Assembly (NCBI GenBank): GCA_026390435.1 | Contig: JAPLFY010000043.1 | Location: 1 to 59,012 of the forward strand | DNA: 59,012 bases | Direction of reading: 5' to 3' | From: Pseudomonadota bacterium | GTDB lineage: Bacteria > Bdellovibrionota_B > Oligoflexia > Oligoflexales > CAIYRB01 | Made by a program: the position numbers and the translations under genes | Notes under the pieces: generated by a model | The model's input: the letters and a program-made list of their open reading frames with translations, nothing else | The model's database searches: none | Told to the model about the DNA's origin: nothing | In this document: one piece after another, positions 2,342-58,554 of the stretch | Numbering within the stretch: position 1 is the stretch's first letter | Layout: each line of letters starts with the position of its first letter

Positions 2342-3019
2342 ATGACGGACTTATACCTAAAACAAATCCTTGTCGGCCCCATGGCGAACTTCGCCTATCT
2401 CATTGGTTCAAAAAGCACGCGCGAGTGTCTGGTGGTCGATCCGGCCTGGGACATTGCCGCGATTGAAGCCGCCGCCGCTGCGGACGACATGAAGATTACC
2501 GGTGCGCTCGTCACTCACTATCACCCCGATCACTGCGGTGGTCACGTTTGGGGCCATGATATTCAGGGCATTGCCGAACTCCTCGCCTCAAAACACGTAC
2601 CGGTTTATGCTCAGGCTGACGAGATCGATGGCATCGTTAAAATGACCGGTGTCAGTCGTAGTGACATAAAATCCTGCCAAAGCGGTGATAAAGTTACGGT
2701 GGGTGGGGTTGATATCACCTTGATTCACACACCGGGGCATACTCCTGGCAGTCAGTGTTTTCTTTGCGAAGACAAGCTGATCTCTGGGGATACTCTATTC
2801 ATCGGTGGTTGTGGTCGCGTTGACCTTCCCGGTGGAAATGTCGAACAACTCTACGACAGCCTGACCAATAAACTGGCTAAATTACCGCCGCAGACCGTGC
2901 TTTATCCGGGGCATAATTACGACTCCGCTCCCCATGCCAGCATGGCTGTAGTCAAAGCTCAAAATCCCTATTTGCAAGCTTCATCCCTCGCCGCTTGGCG
3001 GCAATTACGTGGTGGCTGA
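2342..3019 (+). CDS. MBL-fold metallo-hydrolase (glyoxalase II-like)
   Basis: A 225-aa metallo-beta-lactamase-fold enzyme. The metal-binding motif THYHPDHCGG is at residues 58-67 (H59, H61, D63, H64). Further ligands are H133 in TPGHTPGS, D150 in SGDTLF and the His of PGHNY near residue 190. The layout matches the glyoxalase II/persulfide dioxygenase-like group of small thiolester or sulfur hydrolases; the C-terminal helical domain of classical glyoxalase II is short here, so the substrate is uncertain. No signal peptide is seen, so it is probably cytoplasmic. The next gene starts 4 bases after the stop, which suggests co-transcription, although their functions do not obviously link. The ribosome-binding site is weak. 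Confidence 0.85.
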   Translation: MTDLYLKQILVGPMANFAYLIGSKSTRECLVVDPAWDIAAIEAAAAADDMKITGALVTHYHPDHCGGHVWGHDIQGIAELLASKHVPVYAQADEIDGIVKMTGVSRSDIKSCQSGDKVTVGGVDITLIHTPGHTPGSQCFLCEDKLISGDTLFIGGCGRVDLPGGNVEQLYDSLTNKLAKLPPQTVLYPGHNYDSAPHASMAVVKAQNPYLQASSLAAWRQLRGG

Positions 3020-3022
3020 CGC

Positions 3023-4555
3023 ATGGCAGAATTTCGGCTGCTCTTAGTCTGCGGGCTGCTTATGGCCAGCTCGTGGTCGACTCCGCTTTGGGCGCTTAGC
3101 CTAACGGCGCTGCGGGCATCAGTGTTCAAGATTCAAGTGATGTCGGACGAGCCCAGCTTAATTGAACCGTGGAAACGGATGCTTTCGTCGCAAGGCTCTG
3201 GCACCGGCTTTTACATTGGCGATGGTCGGATCCTGACTAATGCCCACGTGGTGGCCAACGCGTCCTTCATTATGATCCAGCGTGATGGGGACAGCACTCC
3301 CATGCCGGCTGTGATCCGGCACATTGCGCATGACGCAGATTTAGCGCTACTGGAGCCCCTAGATGACGCTGGCAAAAAGGCACTCGCCGAATTGTCACCG
3401 CTTACTTTTGGCGCATTGCCGCGGCTGCGAACTCCTGTCTCCACCATCGGCTTTCCGCTGGGTGGTGAGCAACTTTCGGTCACCGATGGTGTCGTCTCGC
3501 GAGTGAGCTATCGGCGTTACGTGCATCACGGCAGCGCTCAGCATTTGCTGGTGCAGGTTGACTCGGCCATCAATCCGGGGAATAGCGGCGGGCCTGTGGT
3601 ACAGGGCAATCAGGTGGTGGGTGTTGCCTTTCAGAGTTATGCACAAGCCGAGAACACAGGTTATATCATTCCGACGCCGGTGATTTCGCGATTTTTGCGC
3701 GATATAGAAGACGGCCGTTACCAAGGCCATCCAGATGATGGGCTAACGGTGACTGATTGGGCCATACTAAACCCATCGACTGCTGCCTTTTACCGGTTAA
3801 AGCAAGGCGACGGTGGCGTTAAAATTACTCACGTCGATCTCTGGGCGCCAACGGCTGGGCTGCTGCAGTCTGGCGACATCATTCTCGCTATCGACGGACA
3901 ATCAGTCGGCGTTGATGGCAAAGTTAATTTTAGCGGTGAAAGAGTCGACTTTCGCGTTATTTTTGATCTCAAATTGATGGGCGATCAGTGCCGCTTCACA
4001 GTCCTGCGCGACGGCCTTAGGCGTGATGTAACTGTGGCGGTTTTGCCAGCACGTGACCATCACGTGACTGGTAATATCTATGCTCGTCACCCTCGCTATT
4101 TTGTTTACGGCGGTCTGGTGTTTACGGTGCTGTCGCGAAATTTGCTGCGCACGTGGGGGGATAAATGGTACCGGGACGCACCGCTGGCGCTGCGTTATCT
4201 CGACAGTTTCGCTTCTTACGATCCAGAATACGCCAACAATCAAGATATTATCGTTCTCGTAAAGCGACTGCCGGATGCCGTTAATGCCTATGCTACTGGT
4301 AACATGTTTCGCGTGGTCAAGATGGTAGATGGTAACAGGGTAGGGAGTATCTCTGATCTTATCTCTGCCTTGGAGGGGGGAGCCTCCGAATATGCAGTGA
4401 TCGGTTTTATGGGGAGCCAAGATCCTTTGGTGTTGTCCAGGCCTCAGGTGAAGGCCAGAAATAGCGTGATCAACCAGAAATACGGTGTCGCACCTGACCG
4501 GTGGTTGACTGCTGCTGATGAGCAGCCACTTGTGCCCGCAAGGGAACGCTCATGA
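3023..4555 (+). CDS. Deg/HtrA-type serine protease with PDZ domains, exported
   Basis: A 510-aa protein with a signal peptide (residues 1-25) and a trypsin-like domain. The catalytic triad can be read: H75 in LTNAHVVAN, D106 in DADLALL and S188 in NPGNSGGPVV. A PDZ-like region follows (about 255-345, with SGDIILAIDGQSV). A second C-terminal region containing YGGLVFTVLSRNLLRTWG recalls the distal PDZ of plant DEG-type proteases. It probably degrades or checks proteins in the periplasm. Its stop overlaps the start of a related gene by 4 bases (ATGA), so the two are likely translationally coupled. It is not the classical DegP, whose C-terminal half differs. Confidence 0.88.
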   Translation: MAEFRLLLVCGLLMASSWSTPLWALSLTALRASVFKIQVMSDEPSLIEPWKRMLSSQGSGTGFYIGDGRILTNAHVVANASFIMIQRDGDSTPMPAVIRHIAHDADLALLEPLDDAGKKALAELSPLTFGALPRLRTPVSTIGFPLGGEQLSVTDGVVSRVSYRRYVHHGSAQHLLVQVDSAINPGNSGGPVVQGNQVVGVAFQSYAQAENTGYIIPTPVISRFLRDIEDGRYQGHPDDGLTVTDWAILNPSTAAFYRLKQGDGGVKITHVDLWAPTAGLLQSGDIILAIDGQSVGVDGKVNFSGERVDFRVIFDLKLMGDQCRFTVLRDGLRRDVTVAVLPARDHHVTGNIYARHPRYFVYGGLVFTVLSRNLLRTWGDKWYRDAPLALRYLDSFASYDPEYANNQDIIVLVKRLPDAVNAYATGNMFRVVKMVDGNRVGSISDLISALEGGASEYAVIGFMGSQDPLVLSRPQVKARNSVINQKYGVAPDRWLTAADEQPLVPARERS

Positions 4556-6078
4556 AACTTTTGATCGCACTCTTGCTGTGCCTAAATACATGGATTGCGC
4601 CTGCTAGCGAGGCTGCGGTGCGAAGTAGACTAGAGGATCAAGTGGTCCGTCTACTCGTGACCAAACGCGAGGTAGACCATAGTGCACCCTGGCAGAACGA
4701 GGACGTCACCCAGCAGGCGTTTTTAGCAGTAGTCTTGCCGGCTGGGGAATTATTGACGACCGCCTACGCTGTCGCCAACGCTGCATTTCTGGAGATTCAG
4801 CGTTTTGGCTCGTCGCATCGTGAGGAGGCTGAATTAATTTTTGTCGATTATGAAGCTGATTTAGCCTTGGTGCGACCAGTATTGCCCAAGGTATTGCTCG
4901 GTATGAAGCCGCTTGCCTTGGGGGAAGACCTGCCCCTGGATGCCCACGTTGATATTTATAAAGTTCGCGACGCCTATCAGTTGAGCTACGTCCCGGGTAC
5001 TGTGCAAGAGGTTGGGGTAGTCATGGCTGCCACCAGTGCCTACACCATGATGTCTTATAATCTCAAAGTCCAGCAAACCGGTCTTGGTTGGGCTGAGCCT
5101 ATTTTGGCACATGGTAAACTGGTTGCTTTAACTACGGGGCAGGACCAGAATTTCCTTCGTGCCCTCCCCGTTAGCATGATCAAGCATTTTTTAAATGATC
5201 GTCACGACCAAAATTACCGTGGCTTTCCTGCACTTAGTGTCGAGTTAGCGCCTTTAACATCACCCGATCTAAGGCGGATGCTGCACGCAGGGGAGGGCGA
5301 GCAAGGTGTGCGAGTGGCAGAGGTATTTGCGGGCGGTGCTGCCAATCTTGTTGCTAGTAGTAGTGGTGCTAGTAGTAGTGGTGCTAGTACTGGTGATGGC
5401 AAGCTCCAGGTCGACGACGTTATTTTGGCCATAGATGATCAGCCCGTGAGTGATCAGGGATACGTCAGTCATCCGCTATGGGGAAAAGTTCCCCTACGCT
5501 TGCTGCTCAATCAGCATTTTGGCGGCGATGCCCTGCGTCTTAAGATCCTTCGGCAGGGGCGAGAATTAAGCCTCGTAGTGAATCTGGCCCGATTCGATTC
5601 TAATAAGTCACCTGTGTTTGCCTATCGCTACGATCAAGCAGAACCCCATCTAATTTTTGGTGGGTTCGTGTTTCAGGAATTGTCGCAGGATTACCTGCGC
5701 CAGTGGGGCAAAGACTGGCGCGATATCGCGCCCATTGACCTACTTTACTTATTTAATAGTCAAAATCGGCCTACAGCCGACGGTTCGCAGCGGATTGTCT
5801 TTATCAGCCGCGTCCTTGCTGATCCGATGAATCGTGGCTATTCCGACATTCGTCACAAGCGAGTCGCGACGGTCAACGGCAAAGAGGTGACCTCTATCGC
5901 CAGTCTGCGCGCACTGTTGAAATCTCCGGTCATCTCCGATGGCGTCCCTTATAGTCGAATTAAGTTGGGGCCTGAAGGGGATGAGGTGATCATGGACTAT
6001 CAGAACTTAAATGCTGCCCATAGCCGCATCGCGAAGACTTACGAAATCAAATCGCCAACATCATTTTTTACGCCTTAG
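4552..6078 (+). CDS. Catalytically dead Deg-type paralogue (pseudoprotease) with PDZ domain
   Basis: A 508-aa exported protein (signal peptide about 1-20) that lines up along its length with the protease just upstream. Where that has LTNAHVVANASF, this has LTTAYAVANAAF, so the catalytic His is Tyr72. The Asp is kept (D103 in EADLALV). Where that has NPGNSGGPVV, this has TGLGWAEPIL, so the nucleophilic Ser is lost. The PDZ region (DDVILAIDDQPV) and the C-terminal FGGFVFQELSQDYLRQWG region are retained. A likely role is a regulatory or scaffolding partner of the active protease; this is inferred from the coupling and the pattern of loss. An in-frame Ser/Gly/Ala repeat near residues 268-282 sits in the linker before the PDZ. 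Confidence 0.85.
   Translation: MKLLIALLLCLNTWIAPASEAAVRSRLEDQVVRLLVTKREVDHSAPWQNEDVTQQAFLAVVLPAGELLTTAYAVANAAFLEIQRFGSSHREEAELIFVDYEADLALVRPVLPKVLLGMKPLALGEDLPLDAHVDIYKVRDAYQLSYVPGTVQEVGVVMAATSAYTMMSYNLKVQQTGLGWAEPILAHGKLVALTTGQDQNFLRALPVSMIKHFLNDRHDQNYRGFPALSVELAPLTSPDLRRMLHAGEGEQGVRVAEVFAGGAANLVASSSGASSSGASTGDGKLQVDDVILAIDDQPVSDQGYVSHPLWGKVPLRLLLNQHFGGDALRLKILRQGRELSLVVNLARFDSNKSPVFAYRYDQAEPHLIFGGFVFQELSQDYLRQWGKDWRDIAPIDLLYLFNSQNRPTADGSQRIVFISRVLADPMNRGYSDIRHKRVATVNGKEVTSIASLRALLKSPVISDGVPYSRIKLGPEGDEVIMDYQNLNAAHSRIAKTYEIKSPTSFFTP
5353..5394 (+). repeat. 15-bp in-frame tandem repeat in the pseudoprotease gene
   Basis: The unit GCTAGTAGTAGTGGT occurs twice exactly (5353-5367, 5368-5382) and a third time in part. 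It encodes ASSSG. Because 15 is a multiple of three, copy changes would alter only linker length. Confidence 0.8.
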
Positions 6079-6086
6079 GAGCTAGA

Positions 6087-8588
6087 CTAAGCGCTAAGCT
6101 TCGAGCTGGTAGGAGCGTCTTGTAGTTCTTGCCAACGGCTCTGGAGAGCAGTCACTTGATGATGCTGTAAGCCAAGGCGCAAGGTAATGCTGCCGAGGCA
6201 ACTTTGAAACTGGCGCTCGATCGAGTCTGGTAGGTCAATTTTTGCTTTTAATTTTGTTTCTAAAAATAAATGCGCATCTAGTAAAAGGCATAGCAAATCG
6301 GTATCAACAGAGAGAGTGATGAACCAATCGTACAACTTTGCTAATCCAGCGTTGATCCCGGGTCGATCTTCAAAACTAGCGATAGAGCCCAAGCCTGCCA
6401 GGGCATCTACCGCTTTGCGCTGCGTGATAGGCAGTCGGTTAATGCGCGGATCTTCAGCAGATTGAATCAGGAATTTTAATATCTGTGCTCGTTGATCCGC
6501 GCTGAAACGTTGGTAATCAGCGGTGGAAAGTAGCAGCCAGGCTTCTTGAAATCGACTGCTTTCTGGATTTGACGCGACTGAGATCAATTTGTCCAGATAT
6601 CGTAAAGCTATTCTGTTTAGCTGTGAGTGGTGTAATATCTGGCTCGGGTAGCCGATAGCGCGCACGGCGTGGAGAAGCTTTTGCTGTGCATCAATGGCCG
6701 AAGGTTTCGATGAATCACTCAGTAATCCGCCTGGATTCAGGAGTTTTGAAAGGCGGTCGTGAGTGGCTAAAATGAGTTGAAGGGCAGTATCTTTTTCTTT
6801 AAACCCTCTCCAAGGGACACTGGTCACCTGCGCCAGAACTTGCATGATTTCGTTATATTTAGCTGATTTATTGAGTTGCAAAGATAGCATGCGATGGATG
6901 CGCGTACTCTCGGGATTAGAGTCGAAGTCTTTCAGTGATTTCCTGCCCTGTTCAAAGTCGAAATGACGCTGGAGCCTAGGAATCAGCTGCTCAAACTTGA
7001 TGACGAACATGAGTGTTTCGTCTGTATCTCTAGTGCCCGGAGCAGCGGGAATTGGACACGTTTCGATGATGGGAGCCATACCTGGAGCTTCCTGAAGCAG
7101 CCGATTGCGAGCGTCTGGTCCCAGCCAAACAACGTTGCCGATACCGCCAGTTTTTTCCATATAATCGAGCATAGCCAAACGAGTCTGATCCGACAGTGTG
7201 GCCAATTGTACATCATAGCGAATGCCATTCGGTGAATGAGTCATATGCTGATCGAGCCAGGCAAAATCAAAGTGAAAAAACCACTTAGTGCGGTTGATTA
7301 GTGCTGATACTAGCTCAGGCTTGAGCTGACGCGCTAAATCCGGGTCGATGATGGGAAGTAGTGATACTAAGCCTTTGAAGCGGCGCTCGACCAGTGGCCC
7401 ACCGTCTAGATATAGATAGGCAAACATTTTTAGCGTGTCTATACATGGTCTGATTGATTTCTCCGGGTCAATGGCACCAGCTACGCGATGCGAAGATGCT
7501 TGGTTATGTAGATTAAGTGGACCCAGGACATCGTTGACGCAGCGTTGGATCTCCTCGCTGCGAATTTGCAAGATAGAGGCGGGGAGTGCGGCATATAGTT
7601 TGCTCTCGGCATCATGATCGATCACATAATTGGTGGTTTTAAGTCCAACTATGGCTGCCCAGTGCTGCCTGTCGTCGGCGTGGCGACGGAGGAAGCGTCG
7701 TGCCGAAAACGTCGCAAGTTTAGCTGTCATTTGGCTTTGTTGCTGCTCGTACGTCAGCGAGGTGACGTTTGAGAAACTGGCGTAAAGACAACCAATCCAG
7801 CCAAGGGACACAGCTTCTAAGGCTGTATTTAGCATGGCATCGGCAGCGGGATTTAGTGCGACCTTTCCTAGTATCCGTAAACTCATATTCATGAGTAGAC
7901 CGCTGGCGCAAAGCTTTAATGTGCGCTGAGCAGCCAAGTTTTGCGCGCCAATAGGCATTCTGAGTATTAATAAATCCCACCAGTGTCTGGGATTTTTTAG
8001 CAGCATTTTTAGAGGACTTAGTCCAATTAGCAGCACAAGTGGTGCACCTAGTAAGGCGAAGTCACGGATGATGGCCAGGTTTTGAGTCAGAGTTTCCAGG
8101 GATAACCAGCTACGCCCAAGCAGGCCTATGACGCCGCCCATTGCTATGGTCGACGGGACTCCGATCCGAAGGGATAATTTCAAATGTTCGTCGATTTTTA
8201 AATAGGTCATTATGATCGTGGTGAGCCCGTAGCTAAACAACGAGTTCATGATGAGCATGATCCAGAAATGAGCGCTGCTATTTATTTGGCCCACATGTTG
8301 GGCAGAGGTCGAAGCAGCCATTACGGCCAGCGCTTGGGAGCAGACAATGCTTAGTAGTCGCGCTGGTATGGGATCAATAATAGCGGTGATGGCCCCAACG
8401 ATGGTACCACTCGTGAATAGTGAAATTAGTGTAATGCATACAGCCGTAATGATGTTGAATCCGGCGGCTCCCGGTCGGTTAAGAAACCCGGTAAATATGG
8501 CGATCTGCAGCCCAACGGCAACACTCACGCAAGCTGTCAGGCTGATTAGCTTGACGGCGCTTTTAGGGATGTTTTTAAAAATGGGCAT
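6087..8588 (-). CDS. Large unknown integral membrane protein
   Basis: I do not recognise this 833-aa protein. Roughly the first 300 residues contain about eight hydrophobic segments (for example IITAVCITLISLFTSGTIV, TIAMGGVIGLLG and ALLGAPLVLLIGLSPL). The remaining 500 or so residues are soluble, mostly helical, with no motif I can name. The shape is that of a membrane-anchored protein with a large cytoplasmic domain. It converges with the Deg pair, from whose stop it is separated by 8 bases, and lies downstream of a histidine kinase on the same strand with a 28-base gap, so it may share a transcript with the kinase. The ATG at 8588 is the first Met before the hydrophobic region. Confidence 0.75.
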   Translation of the reverse strand: MPIFKNIPKSAVKLISLTACVSVAVGLQIAIFTGFLNRPGAAGFNIITAVCITLISLFTSGTIVGAITAIIDPIPARLLSIVCSQALAVMAASTSAQHVGQINSSAHFWIMLIMNSLFSYGLTTIIMTYLKIDEHLKLSLRIGVPSTIAMGGVIGLLGRSWLSLETLTQNLAIIRDFALLGAPLVLLIGLSPLKMLLKNPRHWWDLLILRMPIGAQNLAAQRTLKLCASGLLMNMSLRILGKVALNPAADAMLNTALEAVSLGWIGCLYASFSNVTSLTYEQQQSQMTAKLATFSARRFLRRHADDRQHWAAIVGLKTTNYVIDHDAESKLYAALPASILQIRSEEIQRCVNDVLGPLNLHNQASSHRVAGAIDPEKSIRPCIDTLKMFAYLYLDGGPLVERRFKGLVSLLPIIDPDLARQLKPELVSALINRTKWFFHFDFAWLDQHMTHSPNGIRYDVQLATLSDQTRLAMLDYMEKTGGIGNVVWLGPDARNRLLQEAPGMAPIIETCPIPAAPGTRDTDETLMFVIKFEQLIPRLQRHFDFEQGRKSLKDFDSNPESTRIHRMLSLQLNKSAKYNEIMQVLAQVTSVPWRGFKEKDTALQLILATHDRLSKLLNPGGLLSDSSKPSAIDAQQKLLHAVRAIGYPSQILHHSQLNRIALRYLDKLISVASNPESSRFQEAWLLLSTADYQRFSADQRAQILKFLIQSAEDPRINRLPITQRKAVDALAGLGSIASFEDRPGINAGLAKLYDWFITLSVDTDLLCLLLDAHLFLETKLKAKIDLPDSIERQFQSCLGSITLRLGLQHHQVTALQSRWQELQDAPTSSKLSA

Positions 8589-57612: not shown

Positions 57613-58554
57613 TTAGATGCAATTGACCACGTTTACTTGGTTGTTAGTGAAAATCTGCACGCCACCACCGAAGGTGACATTGCTCTGAGCACAAGCAGTG
57701 ACATTGACTTGTTGCAGTACCGAAACACCAGAGATGCAATATAGGGCTAGAGGGTTCAGCAAGGCTAATTCTACGGCACCTAAGACGTTCACCATGTTAA
57801 TGATCACCAGTGTCGGGCCTTTTGATGCATCTGCAATCACGTTGCCACTGAGCACGTTTACGCTATTGACCATCCGCACGCCAATTTGAAATGGGCCACC
57901 AACGGGCACGCCGACACCGGCAAAGGCTCCAAGGCAAGATCCGACGACACCTTTGTCGTAAAAACCACCACCGAAGCCACCAGGACCACCGAAGCCGCCC
58001 GGTCCACCGATGCCGCCTGGGCCACCGATGCCGCCTGGGCCACCGATGCCGCCTGGGCCGCCGATGCCACCGTAGCCGCCAGCACCACCGATGCCACCGA
58101 AGCCGCCAGCACCACCGATACCGCCGAAGCCGCCAGCACCACCGATGCCACCGTAGCCACCTGGTCCACCAACACCGCCTGGGCCGCCGACACCGCCGAC
58201 ACTGCCTGGACCGCCGACGCCGCCAGCGTTAATGCCACCGACGCTAGCCGGATCACCGCCGCCGATAGCGCCCTGTGGCCACTGAATATTACCGTTGCCG
58301 TCATTACAATATGCATTTATGCCGCATTCCAGCGCCTTTCCGTCGGCACCAAGAGCAGGGCCTGTGCCAGCGGGAGCCCCTGGGCCTGCAGCGGGAGTAC
58401 CTGGTGCAGCGCCGTCGACAGGAGCAGCGCCGTCCACTAATGCGGCTGGATTACGGTTGCTGCTTTTTGAGGTTATTTGCGCGCATCCCATAAGTATGGA
58501 AAGCACTGAGGTAGATGTTAAAAGTAAACTGGTGTGCTTTGAGATGTAAGACAT
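57613..58554 (-). CDS. Glycine-rich repeat lipoprotein
   Basis: A 313-aa lipoprotein with lipobox ILMGC. After an Ala/Pro/Gly linker and a segment with two cysteines (CGINAYCNDGNG), residues about 108-200 consist of GGxGG units (GGIGGAGGFGGIGGPGG and variants). The last 110 residues are hydrophobic beta-rich and Asn/Val-rich, with VNVLSGNV, VNVTACAQSNVTF and QVNVVNC. The C-terminal part looks like a parallel beta-helix or adhesive domain. A surface or matrix role is plausible; no family is recognised. Confidence 0.8.
   Translation of the reverse strand: MSYISKHTSLLLTSTSVLSILMGCAQITSKSSNRNPAALVDGAAPVDGAAPGTPAAGPGAPAGTGPALGADGKALECGINAYCNDGNGNIQWPQGAIGGGDPASVGGINAGGVGGPGSVGGVGGPGGVGGPGGYGGIGGAGGFGGIGGAGGFGGIGGAGGYGGIGGPGGIGGPGGIGGPGGIGGPGGFGGPGGFGGGFYDKGVVGSCLGAFAGVGVPVGGPFQIGVRMVNSVNVLSGNVIADASKGPTLVIINMVNVLGAVELALLNPLALYCISGVSVLQQVNVTACAQSNVTFGGGVQIFTNNQVNVVNCI
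57961..58230 (-). repeat. Gly-rich coding tandem repeats
   Basis: Units of 9, 18 and 27-36 bases built on GGxGG codons repeat imperfectly across this stretch. On the plus strand the same bases give long open frames that are artefacts of the repeat. Confidence 0.85.

Follow-up and report, generated by a model that had tools for sequence, protein, structure and literature searches.

A Deg2/Deg9-type protease and its catalytically dead paralogue, encoded by overlapping genes and retained together across a bacterial order

Deg/HtrA proteases are normally regulated homo-oligomers. In magnetotactic bacteria, the active HtrA protease MamE is activated non-catalytically by MamO, an HtrA-type pseudoprotease, and physical contact between the two proteins was not detected (PMC4794232). 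In the plant protein Deg7, a functional and an inactive Deg half belong to a single polypeptide, and the inactive half is used for trimerisation (PMC3473262). In plant Deg2, the second PDZ domain (PDZ2) is unable to bind substrate; it provides the surface on which the LA loop docks, and links facing trimers to give a resting hexamer (PMC4877387). An earlier sequence-only reading of the DNA studied here knew of no bacterial Deg system described with two such chains; MamE/MamO is in fact described (PMC4794232), and plant Deg7 is a further precedent (PMC3473262).

We analysed a stretch of 59,012 nucleotides (the window, to whose numbering the positions below refer) in which two adjacent genes of the forward strand, A and B, encode Deg homologues. 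Gene A (3023..4555) encodes a secreted Deg protease of 510 residues comprising a signal peptide, a Trypsin_2 domain, PDZ1 and PDZ_3. The triad H75, D106 and S188 noted previously was confirmed, each residue lying in a full consensus motif (LTNAH, HDADLALL and NPGNSGGP, respectively); the codons of the catalytic His75 and Ser188 are at 3245..3247 and 3584..3586. The closest solved structures are those of Deg2 (4fln) and Deg9 (5il9), with E-values of ~1e-65. The PDZ_3 domain (PF17815) matches with 78.5 bits, above the Pfam cut-off, and PDZ1, which at 26.9 bits falls just under its cut-off of 27, aligns through with 4fln. A thereby has the features of the Deg2/Deg9 type, namely a trypsin-like domain with His, Asp and Ser and a C-terminal pair of PDZ domains of which the second is a PDZ_3. 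It is predicted to be a periplasmic quality-control protease and would form a trimer-based oligomer. Against the MamE equivalog model A reached 67 of 800 bits, far under the cut-off, and no NCBIfam model was matched at its cut-off by A or by B. The source genome contains 17 Trypsin_2 matches including A, and its only PDZ_3 proteins are A and B.

Gene B (4552..6078, forward strand) encodes a secreted Deg pseudoprotease of 508 residues, with its own signal peptide, separate from that of A, followed by a protease-like domain, PDZ1 and PDZ_3. At the catalytic columns, Y72 (codon 4765..4767) replaces His, D103 is retained and W180 (codon 5089..5091) replaces Ser in the segment QQTGLGWAEP, LGWAEP standing where GNSGGP is expected. 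The sequence-only reading was thus accurate in describing a Tyr at the His position, the absence of the GNSGGP serine and the preservation of the PDZ and C-terminal regions. The Trypsin_2 match of B (17.2 bits) is below the Pfam cut-off of 27.6, and its PDZ_3 match is strong at 98 bits. B lacks the catalytic triad and keeps the architecture of protease-like domain, PDZ1 and PDZ_3; judged by its sequence, it is a Deg homologue by descent and not a protease. Among solved structures, plant Deg2 and Deg9 again ranked first, as full-length homologues. They were also the best matches, over all three domains, when B was modelled with AlphaFold2 (a shallow, moderately confident model, pLDDT 72), with a TM-score of 0.66 over 483 columns. 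The domain search found no extra domain in B, such as a TauE domain C-terminal to PDZ_3. Within PDZ1 of B, a 15-base tandem repeat TGCTAGTAGTAGTGG at 5352-5395 encodes a Ser/Gly/Ala linker; its length differs in the closest relative (locus L049) and it is missing from L050 and L051.

Trp is the most frequent residue at the Ser column among B proteins, and the motifs LGW[AS]EP or GYGWFEP recur in place of GNSGGP in several families. Such recurrence could fit a repurposed fold whose former active site binds a new ligand (metal, peptide or cofactor), for which MamO is a bacterial precedent (PMC4794232). The substitute motif is however not universal, Trp being found in about half of B proteins and Lys, Asn or others elsewhere, and we regard this explanation as improbable.

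The stop and start codons of A and B overlap as ATGA at 4552..4555, and the two products share 26% identity end to end (E 1e-34). The coordinates, overlap and paralogy reported earlier were therefore right, and this whole-length homology rules out a chance pairing of unrelated proteases. The earlier wording, that translation fuses the chains, was inaccurate: two distinct proteins are made from overlapping genes. A possible ribosome-binding site for B, AAGGGA, lies inside A at approximately 4540..4545 on the forward strand. The Shine-Dalgarno-like AGGG in the 3' end of A is weak in the window, and most relatives have stronger purine-rich sites. From the 4-base overlap and this weak AGGG we infer that translation of A and B may be coupled.

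Upstream, a gene for an MBL-fold hydrolase (2342..3019, forward strand) ends 3 bases before A and probably forms one operon with it in the source genus and in some related genera. It was rejected as a conserved operon partner because it adjoins A in only 9 loci from three families and is not conserved elsewhere. At a locus of the same family (L060, 6460-8160), the first ~59 residues of the hydrolase are joined in frame to A and the remainder is gone, which reflects either a fusion caused by deletion or a faulty assembly. On the other side, the reverse strand (6087-8588) encodes a putative membrane protein of 833 residues that matches no Pfam family, its gene ending 9 bases after B. Across the order, 15 loci have this membrane-protein gene near the A/B pair, with genes for a histidine kinase, lon and clpX following it. 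This convergent block was likewise discarded as an operon partner, being a shared neighbourhood on the other strand; with lon and clpX, it is a conserved proteolysis neighbourhood. Elsewhere in the window, a reverse-strand ORF of 447 residues (343-1686) combines an AbiEi-like antitoxin N-terminus (NF047376, below cut-off) with an AbiEii nucleotidyltransferase (PF08843) and may be a type IV toxin-antitoxin fusion. Another reverse-strand gene (57613-58554) encodes a protein that is very rich in glycine, seems to be secreted and has GGxGG-type repeats in mid-chain.

The search for adjacent pairs in other genomes that the sequence-only reading had proposed was carried out on 58 genomes of the source phylum. 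PDZ_3 matches were found in 26 of them, each with one A and one B, and no genome had A without B or B without A. Twenty-three pairs are contiguous, 19 of these with the 4-base overlap, and the remaining 3 are cut by contig ends. The triad is intact in all 25 readable A proteins (His in 25/25, GNS in 25/25). Conversely, none of 25 B proteins has a His at the catalytic column and none of 26 has the GNSGGP serine, so that the survey of the phylum yielded pairs in relatives and no B homologue with an intact triad. The B of locus L063 does align a Ser at the Ser column, within LASSAP and accompanied by Ala at the His and Asn at the Asp columns, which leaves it without a triad. When a B profile was searched against 18 genomes that belong to the same class and lack PDZ_3 matches, only short, weak trypsin or PDZ matches of at most 40 bits were returned, and hence no solitary B is present among them; in two positive controls, A scored about 220 bits and B 590 to 650 bits. 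Mapped on an rpoB tree, the pair occurs throughout the order, and at least 6 changes between presence and absence are forced; each absence is joint, and some absences may be assembly gaps. Because A and B are kept or lost together across the whole order, B very likely has a function.

Selection was estimated within the genus. The dN/dS of B is 0.07-0.12, similar to that of A, and falls to 0.04-0.06 in its protease-like domain: B is under purifying selection like A. The loss of His and Ser and the long B branches in some genera could suggest a tandem duplicate decaying without function, and we consider this very unlikely. Its frame is open in all families, purifying selection on it is as strong as on A, its signature residues are conserved and it is present wherever A is. 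A recent pseudogene is likewise contradicted by a dN/dS of about 0.1 and by retention throughout the order. The earlier view of the pair as a system and not a case of recent decay is upheld, B being stable, selected and inseparable from A (joint in 26/26).

The distribution of conservation differs between the two proteins. Between genera, the protease domain leads in A (55%), whereas in B the protease-like domain (23%) is slightly less conserved than the PDZ domains (27-28%), as if constraint in B had shifted from the former to the latter. The positions invariant or almost so in B are PW (residues 46-47), W310-G311, E376 and W389, and those enriched in B are H307, W310, G311 and E376. The evolutionary rates of A and B remain correlated once rpoB distance is taken into account (partial r 0.50, permutation p 0.005, 22 genomes). 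In subsets the correlation was 0.62 and 0.69, compared with 0.33-0.44 for either of them with two neighbouring genes. Given the small sample and a signal that is not specific, this is no more than suggestive.

In a maximum-likelihood tree of 82 proteins, A and B form separate clades (100/100) and group together (98/92) with respect to plant Deg2 and the Deg proteins of two further phyla, which fits a duplication within the source lineage; owing to the long B branches, relationships inside B are unsure. The PDZ_3 domain carries a GY motif, mostly N-x-G-Y, which in B of the window is N-R-G-Y (residues 427-430, 5830..5841, forward strand). This motif is kept in 25/26 B and 0/26 A; it is also found in 21/21 proteins of a second phylum and in plant Deg2 and Deg9. 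It is not universal, since in Campylobacterota, where a lone active copy occurs in 14/298 genomes, the Tyr is mostly Asp or Asn. We relied on the GY motif alone because PDZ_3 bit scores fail to separate A from B (B higher in 15/25). Loss of the PDZ1 'GER' glutamate was dropped as a marker of dead copies, as some solitary active copies lose it too. A and B have degenerated in complementary ways: GY is lost in A and kept in B, and catalysis is lost in B and kept in A.

The second phylum is that of a Goldiibacteriota genome. Five of its genomes (loci L123, L124, L125, L126 and L128) contain active/dead Deg pairs, the two PDZ_3-bearing genes being neighbours that overlap by 4 bases. The first gene is intact and the second lacks the Ser (Tyr, Gln, Gln, Asp and His in its place); these dead copies keep Asp, and 3/5 keep His. 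The N-termini of the B copies of L123 and L128 resemble lipoboxes, which suggests that these copies are lipoproteins. In the tree, the second-phylum B proteins nest with the A and solitary copies of their own phylum (100/99), and forcing all B into one clade costs 20 log-likelihood units (AU p 0.0755). A single origin of B for both phyla is disfavoured on these grounds, though not rejected, and active/dead pairs likely, though not provably, originated independently in the two phyla. The retained Asp in some relatives and the His in most second-phylum copies raise the question of a protease with another catalytic arrangement. This is very unlikely, as no candidate nucleophile is conserved at the former site across B and the oxyanion loop GNSGG is gone.

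On balance, B probably assembles with A as a partner without catalytic activity and controls it; their contact, its stoichiometry and the sign of regulation (activation or restraint) we can only infer. In an ancestor of the order, a solitary periplasmic protease of Deg2/Deg9 type would have been duplicated in tandem, and the work divided between the copies. A would have retained catalysis, while B lost the catalytic His and Ser and retained PDZ1-PDZ_3 with its GY. The overlapping operon would ensure that both are made in step, after which both would be exported and assembled into a mixed Deg oligomer with B as the non-cutting subunit. The PDZ domains of B may bind to A in the way that PDZ2 of plant Deg2 engages the LA loop and the facing trimer, thereby fixing whether A rests or is active, or supplying it with substrate. 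If PDZ_3 of B plays such a PDZ2-like role towards A, the result would be a mixed cage of catalytic A and regulatory B. A classical mixed trimer built through the protease domains is doubtful, because the protease-like core of B is poorly conserved between genera.

Other observations would suit a separate periplasmic PDZ chaperone or substrate receptor, acting in the same pathway as A (for instance by holding or sorting misfolded envelope proteins) and forming no stable complex with it. Conservation of B centres on PDZ1/PDZ_3 and on H307, W310, G311 and E376 and not on the protease core, and the two proteins have separate signal peptides. Nevertheless, A and B are strictly kept or lost together, their genes overlap and the loss of the PDZ_3 motif is complementary, all of which points to a closer dependence, and we hold this chaperone role to be possible though unlikely. 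By analogy, it may also count against co-assembly that a dead partner can regulate by an indirect route, contact between MamO and MamE having gone undetected (PMC4794232). Should B regulate A as a co-assembling partner, the pair would offer a clean bacterial model for the passage from homo-oligomer to hetero-oligomer by complementary degeneration, and for PDZ_3 function; the probable second origin would be a natural replicate of the active/dead Deg pair. A bolder reading, which we hold less likely than not, is of a periplasmic Deg machine not described before, in which one of two subunits would provide catalysis and the other PDZ_3 docking or regulation, and which would be encoded by overlapping genes, ancestral to the order and evolved again in another phylum.

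A literature search whose coverage left out most subscription journals returned no description of a bacterial active/dead operon of Deg2/Deg9 type. MamE/MamO of Magnetospirillum resembles A/B in combining a bacterial active HtrA with an HtrA-type pseudoprotease, MamO being needed for MamE proteolysis. It differs in that activation depends on a TauE transporter domain carried by MamO, whose origin lies in a distantly related trypsin-like protease and not in MamE (PMC4794232), whereas A and B are tandem duplicates of one Deg2/Deg9 architecture. Plant Deg7, organised as PD-PDZ-PDZ-PDia-PDZ-PDZ, shows the same active-then-dead order as A then B (PMC3473262), but is one eukaryotic polypeptide, while A/B are two ORFs with a stop/start overlap that match Deg2/Deg9 best among solved structures. 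Plant Deg2 and Deg9 (4fln, 5il9), the nearest solved relatives of A and B over all domains, are catalytically active homo-oligomers with no dead partner gene. Plant Deg5/Deg8 is a two-chain Deg hetero-complex with 1:1 stoichiometry (PMC4877387), in which both chains have the catalytic triad, Deg5 having no PDZ domain and Deg8 one. The principle of active/dead partnering is thus known from MamE/MamO and Deg7, and what is new is its operonic Deg2/Deg9-type form and its deep conservation.
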